Origin: an uncultured Verrucomicrobiota bacterium
GTDB lineage: Bacteria > Verrucomicrobiota > Verrucomicrobiia > Opitutales > Intestinicryptomonadaceae
Assembly (NCBI GenBank): GCA_949298545.1
Contig: CASFWX010000031.1
Coordinates: 1 to 35,408, forward strand
Direction of reading: 5' to 3'
Length of the DNA stretch: 35,408 nucleotides
Position 1 is the stretch's first letter. The number at the start of each line of letters is the position of its first letter. This document shows, one piece after another, positions 7,875-13,185 of the stretch. Under the pieces are notes generated by a model. That model did no database searches and was not told the DNA's origin. It worked only from the letters and a program-made list of their open reading frames with translations. The position numbers and the translations under genes were made by a program.

Positions 7875-10193
7875 ATGAAAAACGAGATATCAGAAAAATT
7901 GCTCGAACTCATGCGGGAAAAGAGCTATGCGCCCCGCACCCTCCAGGAACTGTCTTCGATGCTCGGACTTAGGCGCAAAGACAATTCCAAACTTAAAAAA
8001 ACGCTATCAAAACTGCTTGGCGATGGAAGCATTGCAAAAGTAAAGGGCGACAGGTACGGCGTTTCTGCCGATCTCGATTTGGTCGCCGGAATAATAGAGT
8101 TTCGCCAGAGCGGGCGGGCTGTCCTCCGCACTGGAAATCCCTATGACGACATTGAAATCAGGCGCGAAGACACTGGAGTGGCTTTGAACGGAGACAAAGT
8201 TCTCGCTCGGATATTGGCATCGCGTTCCCGCGGCGGAAGGGGTTTGCGCGGGGGGGCGGCAAGGCGCTCGGAACAGGACGCTCGCGACGATAGAAAATAC
8301 GCGAAGGTCATACGCATTCTCGACCGGAAAAACACCAAGGTGGTTGGAACCTTGCGCCGCTCATACAACGTTTGGCATGTAGTGCCTGACGATCCGAAAT
8401 TTTTTTACGACATAATAGTCGCCGATCCCGCCGCTTCGGGTGTTTTCCCGATCCCTAAAGCGGACGATAAGCTGGTGGTTCGTTTAAATGAATGGACCCA
8501 GCGGCATATAAATCCGAGCGGGGAAATAATAGAGAATCTCGGGCAGAGCCATACTCCGATGGCGGAGTACAGGGGGATACTCGTCAAGTACGATTTGCGC
8601 GACAGTTTCCCGGACGCGGTTCTCAAGGAGATTTCGGGTGTTCCGTCCGCCGTTTCCGCCAAAGACAGGCAAGGCAGGCTCGACATACGGAATCTATTTA
8701 CAATAACCATAGATCCCGAGGACGCCAAAGATTTTGACGATGCGGTGAGCATAGAGCCCGCCGGAGAAGGCTTGTGGGAAGTGGGCGTGCACATTGCCGA
8801 TGTCGCCCATTACGTCCGCCCGGGAAGCGCGATAGATTTAGAGGCTCGGGCGCGGGGCAATTCGACATATCTGGTCGGAACTGTGATACCGATGCTGCCG
8901 TTTGAGCTTTCAAACGGAATTTGCAGCCTCGTCGAAAACGAGGACAGGCTGGTAAAGAGCGTTTTCCTCAAATTTGACGCCGCCGGAGACTGCAAGGGAG
9001 TGCGCTTCGCCAATTCCGTCATGAGGAGTTCAAAGCGCCTAAGCTACGAGCAGGCGCACGCTTTTTTGGTAGAGAACGATCTTGCGAAAATTGCAAAAGT
9101 CCGCCCTCCCGCAGATTACGAGACGGCATTTGCCGGAAAAAATCTGGATTCGCTTTCTGCTTCGGAGCTGGCAAAGATACAATCCGCCATTCGGCAAATG
9201 TGGAATATAGCATCTGCCTTGCGAAATAAGAGAATGAAAAAGGGAAGTTTGGATTTTGAGCTTCCCGAATTTAAAATTTTTTGCAACGCCGAGGGCTATG
9301 CCGACAGGATAGAGAAAATATCCTACGACGAAAGCCATCAGTTGATTGAGGAGTTTATGCTCGCCGCAAACGAAGCCGTAGCGCGGGAATTGTTTTGGCA
9401 CCATATTCCATTCGTATCGCGCGTGCACGACAAGCCGGAGGCGGACAAGCTTATCGAGTTGCGCGCCGAACTTGCTGGATTCGGCATAAAATGCGGAGAT
9501 TTGTCGTCGCGGCGGGAGCTTATAAGAGTGCTTGCGGAAATATCCAAACATACGCAGAGCTATTATCTAAAAACGCGTTTTCTCAGGAGCTTGAAGCGCG
9601 CCGAGTACCGCGCTTCGCCCGACGGCCATTACGGCCTTAACAAGGTTTATTATTCGCATTTCACCTCTCCAATACGCAGATATTCCGATTTGCTTTCGCA
9701 TAGGGCGATCAATTGGCTCTTGAGGGAGACTTCAGGTGCGGGGGCGCCCAAGTCGCAGGTGCAGCTGCCAAACAAGGCTGCTCTCGAGCAGATTGCGGCG
9801 GACATTTCCCGCACTGAGCAGAATAGCGCCGACGCCGAACGGGAAAGCAGGAAGATAAAGTTGATGGAGTTCTTTGAAAGGAAAATCGACACCGGAGAAT
9901 CTTTTGAGGCAGTTATAGAATCGGTTTCAAACCACGGATTTTTTGTGGAGTTGACCCAGTCTATGGCGTACGGATTTGTCCACGTCCACAACTTGCGGGA
10001 CGATTTTTACCATGTTTCTGGAGAGGGCGGGGAATTGCGCGGCAGGCGCACCGGCGAAACATTTAAAACTGGCGACAAAGTGCGCGTTGAGGTCGAAAGC
10101 GTCGACAGGTTTAAGCGTCAAATAGACTTCAGGCTTGCCGCTTCCTCCGACAGCGCTTCGCGCGCGAAGAAGCGCCGCAAGAGGAACTCGTAG
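7875..10193 (+). CDS. rnr: Ribonuclease R (RNase II family 3'-5' exoribonuclease)
   Basis: It degrades structured RNA processively from the 3' end. The order of domains is complete: an N-terminal winged-helix region (about 1-60), cold-shock/OB folds (about 65-250), the RNB catalytic domain beginning at DPEDAKDFDDAVS (280-292) with the clustered metal-binding aspartates, YYSHFTSPIRRYSDL near residue 600, and an S1 domain (about 667-755, FEAVIESVSNHGFFVEL). A lysine/arginine-rich tail (AKKRRKRNS) ends it. At 772 residues it has the length of RNase R rather than RNase II. It starts 10 bases after the ccsA-like gene without an obvious Shine-Dalgarno site. Confidence 0.96.
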   Translation: MKNEISEKLLELMREKSYAPRTLQELSSMLGLRRKDNSKLKKTLSKLLGDGSIAKVKGDRYGVSADLDLVAGIIEFRQSGRAVLRTGNPYDDIEIRREDTGVALNGDKVLARILASRSRGGRGLRGGAARRSEQDARDDRKYAKVIRILDRKNTKVVGTLRRSYNVWHVVPDDPKFFYDIIVADPAASGVFPIPKADDKLVVRLNEWTQRHINPSGEIIENLGQSHTPMAEYRGILVKYDLRDSFPDAVLKEISGVPSAVSAKDRQGRLDIRNLFTITIDPEDAKDFDDAVSIEPAGEGLWEVGVHIADVAHYVRPGSAIDLEARARGNSTYLVGTVIPMLPFELSNGICSLVENEDRLVKSVFLKFDAAGDCKGVRFANSVMRSSKRLSYEQAHAFLVENDLAKIAKVRPPADYETAFAGKNLDSLSASELAKIQSAIRQMWNIASALRNKRMKKGSLDFELPEFKIFCNAEGYADRIEKISYDESHQLIEEFMLAANEAVARELFWHHIPFVSRVHDKPEADKLIELRAELAGFGIKCGDLSSRRELIRVLAEISKHTQSYYLKTRFLRSLKRAEYRASPDGHYGLNKVYYSHFTSPIRRYSDLLSHRAINWLLRETSGAGAPKSQVQLPNKAALEQIAADISRTEQNSADAERESRKIKLMEFFERKIDTGESFEAVIESVSNHGFFVELTQSMAYGFVHVHNLRDDFYHVSGEGGELRGRRTGETFKTGDKVRVEVESVDRFKRQIDFRLAASSDSASRAKKRRKRNS

Positions 10194-10322: not shown

Positions 10323-11381
10323 TTACGAGAGTTGAGATCCCGCGTCCTTTCGGCTTTGGCTTTTTGCTTTGCGCATGTAAAGCAGTGATGATGCCAGGGA
10401 CGCCAGGATTAAAGCCATTCCCAAAGAGCCCGTTATAATTTCATGTATTTCCTCAAAAGTTGAGAGCAGCATAATAGCTGCGAGCGATCCTATCGCCCAA
10501 TATGCCCCGTGGGTCAAGAATATTAGGCGTTCGAGCGTATGTTTTTCAACCAGCAGCAGCGTGAGCGAACGCACGAAAAACGCCCCTACTGCCAAGCCTA
10601 TCGTTATTATGACAACGTCCTTTGTGAGCGCAAAAGCTCCTAATACCCCGTCAAGGGAAAAAGATGCGTCTATGAGCTCCAGATAGATAAATGCGGCGAG
10701 GCCGGCGTGTTTTATTGCAAAGGCATTTTTCATTTCGGCAAGGCGCTCGAGTTTGGCGCTTACCCCGTGTATTAGCAGATGGGTCACTATTCCCGCTACA
10801 CCCGCTATCATAGATACGGATATTTGATCCGGCTTCAACATGGGCTGTATTGCGCCTAGGCCAATGAGAGTCAGAAGGGTGGGAGCCTGCGGTATGCGCC
10901 CGATTTTTTTCAATATTCTCTCGGCTGGCGCTATCCAATGCAGATTTTTATCCCGCTCAAACATGAATTCAAAAAATAGCATGAACAGGAAAGTTCCCCC
11001 GAAAGAGGAAATTCCGACATGCGCCTCCCTCAAATGCCGCGCGTATTCGTCGGGATTATTTAGAGCGAGATTCAAGACGCTGGAGCACGGTATTCCTGCA
11101 AATATTGCAACTATTACTATCGGAAATACAAAACGCATGCCGAATACCGCTATTGCTATCCCCCAAGTCAGAAAGCGCTTGCGCCATTTCAGCTCCATTT
11201 TTTTCAGCTTCGTGGCATTGATTACGGCATTGTCGAAAGACAGGCTGACCTCAAGTGCGCTGATTATAATTGCCGCCAAGACAAATTGCAATCCACTGTG
11301 TCCGGTTTCGTATCCGCGCATGTACGCGAAGACCATTCCAAGCGTGAGGACAAGTATGTCCCATTTAAAATATTTTGCCAT
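10323..11381 (-). CDS. DUF475 / TerC-superfamily integral membrane protein
   Basis: This 352-residue polytopic protein has about nine hydrophobic spans. It shows the internal duplication typical of the TerC superfamily: an acidic SFDNAVINA motif in an early helix (about 48-56) and a matching LELIDASFSLDGVLGA motif in the second half (about 235-250). The aspartates in these paired motifs are thought to form a metal or ion site. The DUF475 branch is suggested by KWRKRFLTWGIAIAVFGMR and overall length. TerC relatives have been linked to metal (Mn) export, tellurite resistance and membrane stress; the substrate here is unknown. It begins 46 bases after the EIIA-cyclase fusion on the same strand and may be cotranscribed with it. 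Confidence 0.82.
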   Translation of the reverse strand: MAKYFKWDILVLTLGMVFAYMRGYETGHSGLQFVLAAIIISALEVSLSFDNAVINATKLKKMELKWRKRFLTWGIAIAVFGMRFVFPIVIVAIFAGIPCSSVLNLALNNPDEYARHLREAHVGISSFGGTFLFMLFFEFMFERDKNLHWIAPAERILKKIGRIPQAPTLLTLIGLGAIQPMLKPDQISVSMIAGVAGIVTHLLIHGVSAKLERLAEMKNAFAIKHAGLAAFIYLELIDASFSLDGVLGAFALTKDVVIITIGLAVGAFFVRSLTLLLVEKHTLERLIFLTHGAYWAIGSLAAIMLLSTFEEIHEIITGSLGMALILASLASSLLYMRKAKSQSRKDAGSQLS

Positions 11382-11427: not shown

Positions 11428-12789
11428 TCATTCTCTGCGCTTCTCGGTAATAGGCATCATTTGCCCTTTGCGGAACAGGGTTATTTGTCCCGTGCTCGAG
11501 GAAACTACAACAGATATGCAGTCTGCCATGAGGGAAATAGCGTATGCGGCGGCATGGCGCGCACCCAATCCCCCGGGAAGCTGAAGCTTGAAATCAGGCG
11601 TGTGTATGAGCGCCCCGGCCGCTTCCATTATTCCGCTTCCGTCTATTATAAAAGCCCCGTCGATGAGAGAGTATTCCTTTACAGTCTCGTCCATAAAAGG
11701 GTTGAGTATGTTTCTGTCTTCGGGGGCGTAGCCGTGGAAGGGATTTAATATCAGCTGCTTTAAGTGCGCTTGCAAATCGGATATCTTTCCCACCACGAAC
11801 AGACAGCCTACGGGCTTCCCCTCGCGCCCTTCGACCGAAAGTTCCGTCGCTATGTCTATTATCCGCTCTATTACTTCCGGCCTCACTCCGTCCGGCAGCA
11901 CGTTTTTCTGGCTTATAAAAATGTCTGAAAATTCGGCGGCTATATCGAGTATAACGACGGAGTCTATCTGCCCGCTTCCGCGAAGCCCGCCAAGGCAACA
12001 TAGTTTATCTTTAGGCTTTAATATTCCGCGCGTCAGGCCCACTATTATCGCGCTTCGAAGCTGGGAGAATCTCGCATCGGAGAACGCGCGGACGTTGATT
12101 GTATCCCAACCCGAAGGTATGGGGGTATTGGCATGCTCGGAGACGAGAATTATTTTTTTGTCTCCGAAATATTTTGAAAAGTCGGGAAGGGTTTCAAAAA
12201 CGTCGCCCTGCAATATTATAGAGGCACATTTGGCGACCTTTACCGCCCTCGCCGCGCATTTGGCTATAAGCTCGTTTATTTTTGAGGATTCGCTCTTGAA
12301 CGATCCAAGCTTTAAAATGGAATCTTGAGACCTGTCGAAAGCTCCGAGCACTTCGTTCCCAAAGGCGGAAACATCGGGAGCGGAGCGGATCTTTTCTATG
12401 GTGTCCGGAATCGAGAAAACTTTTGACAGCTTTGCGAGCACGTCGAAATAGGAATTTGCCTCGTCTCCGGACAATAGGAGGAAGAGCATTTTTGTATTGG
12501 TATATTCCTCCAAGTTTTCGAATTTTATTCCGTTCGGGCAGCGCCCCGCGGCGAACACGTACTTGTTCTTCAAGCCTTTGACGCGCGTGTGGGGTATGCA
12601 AATGCCGTTGCCGAGATATGTCGATATGGATTTCTCTTTCGACACGAGATCCGAAACGACGTCTTTTCTGTTTGTTCCGTTTAAAACGCTGTCCGGTACG
12701 GTTTGGAGGAGCTCCCCCAGCGCCGAGGCAAAATCAGAGCTTTTTATATCTATTATTCGCGATTTGGGAAGAAACCTCTTTAATCTCAT
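11428..12789 (-). CDS. PTS EIIA (type 2) fused to a DacZ-like diadenylate cyclase
   Basis: Three parts are visible in 453 residues. Residues about 10-150 are a fructose/nitrogen-type PTS EIIA domain; GNGICIPHTRV places the phosphorylatable histidine at His67, intact. Residues about 165-295 form an alpha/beta region (ASIILQGDVFETLPDF, KIILVSEHAN) that resembles the pyruvate-kinase-C-like domain found in archaeal DacZ proteins; this part is less certain. Residues about 340-445 are a DisA_N diadenylate cyclase domain with the DGA motif (377-379) and GLGARHAAAYAIS (407-419), whose RH matches the catalytic RHx motif, then a strand VVVSSSTGQITLF. Diadenylate cyclases make c-di-AMP from two ATP. In this branch the motif is GLGxRHxAA rather than the RHR of DisA. 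It begins 12 bases after nuoA, so they are probably cotranscribed. Fusion of a PTS phosphoacceptor with a cyclase suggests regulation of c-di-AMP by phosphorylation, an inference not shown by sequence. Confidence 0.8.
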   Translation of the reverse strand: MRLKRFLPKSRIIDIKSSDFASALGELLQTVPDSVLNGTNRKDVVSDLVSKEKSISTYLGNGICIPHTRVKGLKNKYVFAAGRCPNGIKFENLEEYTNTKMLFLLLSGDEANSYFDVLAKLSKVFSIPDTIEKIRSAPDVSAFGNEVLGAFDRSQDSILKLGSFKSESSKINELIAKCAARAVKVAKCASIILQGDVFETLPDFSKYFGDKKIILVSEHANTPIPSGWDTINVRAFSDARFSQLRSAIIVGLTRGILKPKDKLCCLGGLRGSGQIDSVVILDIAAEFSDIFISQKNVLPDGVRPEVIERIIDIATELSVEGREGKPVGCLFVVGKISDLQAHLKQLILNPFHGYAPEDRNILNPFMDETVKEYSLIDGAFIIDGSGIMEAAGALIHTPDFKLQLPGGLGARHAAAYAISLMADCISVVVSSSTGQITLFRKGQMMPITEKRRE

Positions 12790-12801: not shown

Positions 12802-13185
12802 TTAATTTGTCTTTGGTATGTTCCAGTTGAGAGCTCCCTTTTTCAGTTCATAGAGCATGCCTATTGCTATTACGGCTATGAAAAACAAGACGGGAAGGAG
12901 CATGGGAAGCCCGTCGGATGCGAGATCCGAATAGGACATTGCCAGAGGTATCATGAATACGATTTCTATGTCGAATATTACAAACAACATTGCGGCCAAG
13001 TAGTATCTCGCTCCGAAGCGGGGGTGTGGCTGCCCTTCGGGGCTTATTCCGCATTCATAGGCGGAATTTTTTAATTTATTAGCTTTTGCTCTCTGTCCGA
13101 AAATATGGCTGGCTAAAACTATCGCTCCGCCCATGAAAATTGCCGCGAGAATTTGAATCAAAACGGGAATATAATCAGACTCCAT
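12802..13185 (-). CDS. nuoA: NADH-quinone oxidoreductase subunit A
   Basis: The 127-residue protein has three membrane helices and the conserved NuoA loop KNSAYECGISPEG and the helix motif YYLAAMLFVIFDIEIVFM with its acidic pair. These are diagnostic of complex I subunit A (ND3), a small membrane subunit near the quinone site. Length is normal. No nuoB or other complex I gene follows; instead the EIIA-cyclase gene starts 12 bases downstream. The remaining subunits must be elsewhere in the genome or outside the window, if complex I is made. Confidence 0.95.
   Translation of the reverse strand: MESDYIPVLIQILAAIFMGGAIVLASHIFGQRAKANKLKNSAYECGISPEGQPHPRFGARYYLAAMLFVIFDIEIVFMIPLAMSYSDLASDGLPMLLPVLFFIAVIAIGMLYELKKGALNWNIPKTN

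Follow-up and report, generated by a model that had tools for sequence, protein, structure and literature searches.

A predicted diadenylate cyclase of the DacD class carrying a PTS EIIA domain in the Opitutales

The dacD-type locus

The window, i.e. the whole stretch of 35,408 nt that was analysed, comes from an uncultured bacterium of the order Opitutales (phylum Verrucomicrobiota; assembly GCA_949298545.1, contig CASFWX010000031.1). An open reading frame of 453 aa is present on its minus strand (12789→11428) and starts with an ATG at position 12789. An earlier note on this DNA had placed a gene at 11428–12789 and gave no strand; the open reading frame is real, and it is now assigned to the minus strand. 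A chance or frame artefact is ruled out because the sequence is conserved across 71 homologues. The features are as follows:

11428..12789, minus strand: dacD-type gene, EIIA – DacZ_P (PK_C fold) – DAC, 453 aa (open reading frame, Pfam matches and homologues)
12322..12789, minus strand: EIIA domain, residues 1–156, EIIA-Ntr/Mtl fold (PF00359, E = 2e-17; Z = 18.7 to E. coli and Neisseria PtsN)
12589..12591, minus strand: His67, predicted phospho-acceptor (kept in 70/71 homologues; aligns with the active-site PH of PtsN)
12448..12450, minus strand: Tyr114, at the place of EIIA's second active-site His (65/65 Opitutales have Tyr, 6/6 of family f8 have Phe)
11920..12294, minus strand: middle domain, residues 166–290, DacZ_P/pyruvate kinase C-terminal fold, probable ligand sensor (PF21755; fold matches; weak sequence match)
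11443..11892, minus strand: DAC (diadenylate cyclase) domain, residues 300–449 (PF02457, E = 2e-18; CdaA/DisA fold, Z = 14–16.8)
11653..11661, minus strand: DGA motif, residues 377–379 (D377 and G378 in 71/71, A379 in 67/71)
11545..11565, minus strand: G-A-R-H-A-A-A motif, residues 409–415, with the RH invariant and Ala at the third position (R411, H412 and A414 in 71/71)
12802..13185, minus strand: nuoA-like gene (Oxidored_q4), conserved neighbour 12 bp upstream of dacD, no role proposed

The nuoA gene is found directly upstream of dacD and on the same strand at no fewer than 55 of 93 loci. No further nuo gene adjoins nuoA in the window, and the linkage may be mere synteny. Downstream of dacD lies an open reading frame for a DUF475/TerC-family membrane protein (positions 10323–11381), an arrangement that only a few close relatives from the gut share with the window; in many marine members trpA comes after dacD.

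A profile search with PF02457 covering the whole assembly (1.88 Mb in 112 contigs, 92% complete) found the dacD-type gene as the sole DAC gene of this genome. DacD is listed as a bacterial DAC class with Opitutae representatives, namely Lacunisphaera, Puniceicoccaceae and Coraliomargarita, in Braun et al. 2019 (PMC6741144), which cites Corrigan & Gruendling 2013 and Commichau et al. 2018 for the list. By its Opitutae membership, as the class is listed there, the window protein belongs to DacD, and the novelty implied by the earlier note is lower than suggested, since that text already treats the Opitutae DACs as a separate class. The Coraliomargarita and Puniceicoccaceae loci carry the same full-length protein (matched to the listed members by taxon), and no difference from the window protein was found. 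The EIIA–DacZ_P–DAC arrangement is probably covered, reportedly, by a survey that Galperin made in 2023 of the architectures of DAC proteins, which is said to have defined DacZ_P. No experimental test of DacD was found in the literature searched.

The EIIA domain and the phospho-relay

Residues 39–142 match PTS_EIIA_2 (PF00359) with 63.9 bits against a cut-off of 27, and the best sequence matches of the domain are PtsN proteins. An AlphaFold2 model of the protein, built as a monomer on the 71-sequence alignment, has a mean pLDDT of 88.8 and a pTM of 0.62. Residues 1–156 of this model superimpose on the EIIA-Ntr structures 1a6j and 2a0j (2.3–2.4 Å over 144–145 residues). The domain is a PTS EIIA_2 domain with an intact His67 in the sequence GNGICIPHTRV, as had been read from the letters alone. 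In the homologue L002, position 67 is Tyr. Arg51, the partner of His67, is present in 67 of 71 homologues; the window protein itself has Lys51. In a wider set of 82 sequences, R51 and H67 take the 9th and 10th places among 150 EIIA positions by weighted conservation.

The second active-site His, a hallmark of phosphate-donating sugar EIIAs, is absent in all 71 homologues: 65 Opitutales proteins have Tyr (Tyr114 here) and the six of family f8 have Phe. An alignment with EIIAs of the PDB shows His at this position in Burkholderia and Neisseria PtsN, 3oxp and E. coli EIIA-Mtl. According to a 2026 review, the second His acts in transfer to EIIB; in PtsN it faces away, and PtsN is a terminal acceptor (PMC13104625). 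PtsN shares the fold and the phospho-acceptor His with DacD; it consists of one domain and has retained the second His, whereas DacD has Tyr/Phe there and is fused to a cyclase domain. The loss of the second His thus fits a terminal phospho-acceptor, and the sequence suggests this role for the EIIA domain of DacD. The other EIIA_2 protein of the genome also has Tyr at this position.

Enzyme I (EI) is encoded in 113 of 113 genomes of the class, including that of the window, where it is 588 aa long and without a GAF domain; since none of the class genomes lacks it, finding it here is not discriminating. The genome also encodes one HPr, with the motifs GIHARPA and GKSIMS (the His and Ser regulatory motifs), and HprK. 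With both EI and HPr found, the absence of a PTS phosphotransferase, which the earlier note had named as an objection, does not apply. A family profile search of the genome gave no PTS_EIIC (PF02378) and only two EIIA_2 domains, thus the PTS of this organism is likely regulatory. An identity as a sugar-transport EIIA was rejected on the absence of PTS_EIIC (PF02378, the EIIC family searched) together with the missing second His.

The second EIIA_2 protein (141 aa, L129:8518–8943, contig C13 of genome G000) adjoins a CBS-domain ClC chloride channel (6763–8508). This channel, next to an EIIA_2 with Tyr at the second-His position, is possibly a PTS-controlled anion channel.

The cyclase and middle domains

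The Pfam match to DAC (PF02457) covers residues 318–443 (66.5 bits, cut-off 27), and model residues 289–451 match the structures of CdaA and DisA. A C-terminal DisA_N domain with DGA (D377-G378-A379) and GLGARHAAA (R411-H412), as proposed earlier, is borne out by the Pfam match, the motifs and the fold; the outcomes that would have spoken against it were the lack of a DisA_N match or of a DAC-like structure, and DisA_N matches while the predicted fold is DAC-like. In total, 40 columns of the DAC domain are invariant among the 71 homologues.

The complete RHR motif of the DisA/CdaA type is lacking, the window protein having RHA and family f8 having RHE. A change of RHR to AAA abolishes the activity of M. 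tuberculosis DisA (PMC3328451), and the DAC domain of DacD could accordingly be inactive or make a different nucleotide. This is highly improbable, since D377, G378, R411 and H412 are invariant along with the other invariant columns, and DacD is the lone DAC gene in most genomes of the order, mostly with PgpH. In addition, two haloarchaeal proteins annotated as DacZ carry RHH, with the third Arg missing as in the window protein. This softens the weight of the missing Arg, at the level of annotation; a Haloferax DacZ is described as active in PMC6741144. DacD is expected to make c-di-AMP.

The best NCBIfam match of the window protein is DacZ (NF041371), with 95 bits over residues 242–445 against a cut-off of 430. 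The earlier description as “DacZ-like” therefore holds for the DAC domain, and does not hold in the sense of a DacZ equivalog. Archaeal DacZ (CdaZ) is the closest DAC subfamily: it has a PK_C-like domain ahead of the DAC domain and, like DacD, a GxRHxAA sequence without the third Arg, but it has no EIIA domain, whereas the window protein has one. CdaA (DacA), the DAC type expected in the rest of the class, has the DAC fold, DGA and the RH residues in common with DacD; it is membrane-anchored with RHR, whereas DacD is soluble and carries EIIA and PK_C-like domains.

The middle domain gives a marginal match to DacZ_P (PF21755) at residues 173–287 (E = 2.5e-6; 27.6 bits, cut-off 27.4), and scores in relatives reach 85.5 bits. 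Folded alone, it gave a pLDDT of 88.6 and a pTM of 0.82. Among the PDB matches listed for it, 50 of 50 are pyruvate kinase C-terminal domains (Z = 12.6–13.5, about 10%–25% identity), and pyruvate kinases also dominate a profile search of PDB sequences, in which the matches are weak (best E = 0.0017). Since the listed structural matches are all pyruvate kinase, with Z up to 13.5, the earlier reading of a “PK-C-like” domain is right; the weak sequence match and the DacZ_P match agree with it.

The pyruvate kinase C-domain binds allosteric effectors. The middle domain could then be the main regulator of the cyclase, binding a metabolite, with EIIA a minor or decaying add-on. The uniform pyruvate kinase matches favour this, as do the EIIA-less DacZ_P-DAC proteins L175 and L176 and the absence of His67 in family f4 (see below). 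Against this, the domain varies more than the DAC domain does (mean entropy 1.60 vs. 0.85 bits), and FBP binding is not predicted because the DacD stretch that aligns with the first phosphate-binding loop for FBP in pyruvate kinase reads GDTFxGG. Such a role as main regulator is quite improbable. FBP sensing as in pyruvate kinase is unsupported, and, judging from this loop, any ligand that the middle domain may have is probably bound in a way different from FBP.

Natural variants and the proposed regulation

The earlier note had called for a survey of the three-domain architecture, and this was run within the phylum (289 genomes). The same full-length protein is common in Opitutales (41 of 43 genomes of the order). 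In the class sample, family f8 is a further family that carries it, and outside the class it occurs in four genomes from two families. A single DAC match is present in 18 of 19 order-mates, and PgpH accompanies it in most genomes of the order. Most other families of the class have short DAC open reading frames of about 250–310 aa, the size expected for CdaA, and in two families inspected by eye these sequences look CdaA-like. Thus Opitutales appear to have exchanged CdaA for DacD. Beyond the class, L177 combines a full RHR with the canonical His at position 114, and f52 has Phe or Leu at position 114 and an RHT motif.

Family f4, of the same order, shows a different type of variant. Its phospho-acceptor is replaced by Ser with the cyclase motifs intact (L181:2994–4370 and L182:2458–3849), and its EIIA profile score is below the cut-off (PF00359, 23.9 bits). 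HPr is still encoded in f4 genomes, which rules out that loss of the His is paired with loss of the PTS. In the L181 and L182 homologues the EIIA input is naturally uncoupled. With L002 (Tyr67), family f4 shows that some lineages can do without the phospho-acceptor. Another f4 genome, G091, gave neither a DAC nor a PgpH match in profile searches and has kept EI and HPr; c-di-AMP signalling has possibly been lost there as a whole. G240 has a second, EIIA-less DacZ_P-DAC copy (L175:2738–3637) beside its full-length DacD. The loss of the His in f4 and the existence of EIIA-less DacZ_P-DAC proteins show that the EIIA input is a module, and one that can disappear.

These variants bear on whether the EIIA domain is a phospho-switch or a scaffold. 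As a docking module, it would bind TrkA-type or CPA1-type transporters or HPr, and c-di-AMP synthesis would be localised rather than switched by phosphate. PtsN works by direct binding to K+ transporters (PMC13104625), the EIIA-like domain of family f4 persists with its phospho-acceptor His gone, and none of the 71 homologues has the second His. A pure scaffold, however, needs neither His67 nor Arg51, and both are conserved like the structural core in nearly all lineages. A scaffold role is unlikely.

The genome encodes a PgpH-type HD phosphodiesterase of 768 aa. A GdpP-type phosphodiesterase was rejected: two DHHA1 matches that were examined are RecJ-like and NrnA-like proteins, and the length of a third (899 aa) suggests AlaRS. 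TrkA_C domains are present in TrkA (which adjoins TrkH), a CPA1 antiporter and an Asp-Al_Ex transporter, and these three proteins are candidate c-di-AMP targets. No known c-di-AMP riboswitch reached the gathering threshold in 131 kb near the PTS, TrkA or DAC genes. In E. coli, unphosphorylated PtsN controls K+ transporters (PMC13104625; PMC11808508). Since a PTS phospho-relay, PgpH and TrkA/TrkH occur in one genome, a circuit from the PTS through c-di-AMP to potassium, as had been put forward earlier, is possible.

The preferred reading, which we consider somewhat probable, is that DacD is a soluble diadenylate cyclase whose activity is set by the regulatory PTS. Phosphate would pass from PEP to EI, HPr and then His67 of the N-terminal EIIA domain; there it would probably stop, with no passage to EIIB, since Tyr stands where the second active-site His would be. 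The phosphorylation state may alter how EIIA packs, by way of a long helix (residues 140–186), against both the PK_C-like domain and the DAC dimer; this could tune the conversion of 2 ATP to c-di-AMP. The PK_C-like domain would add a second, ligand input. PgpH would degrade c-di-AMP, which may act on the TrkA_C-domain proteins (TrkA/TrkH and the CPA1 antiporter).

A bolder proposal, which we put forward as doubtful, is that DacD senses the PEP-pyruvate node through two inputs, which together set c-di-AMP and hence potassium, and that it replaced CdaA in Opitutales. EIIA would read PEP through PTS phosphorylation, and the pyruvate-kinase-derived domain would read a glycolytic metabolite. Pyruvate kinase itself requires potassium.

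If the relay controls the cyclase, DacD would connect within a single protein the PTS, which reflects carbon/PEP status, to c-di-AMP with its control of potassium and osmotic balance; to our knowledge these two circuits otherwise meet only at transporters. The natural variants without the His would serve as built-in controls. Opitutales is a large and uncharacterised order in which DacD is usually the sole cyclase gene found, and such control would supply for a diadenylate cyclase what most DAC classes have so far lacked, a named input signal.
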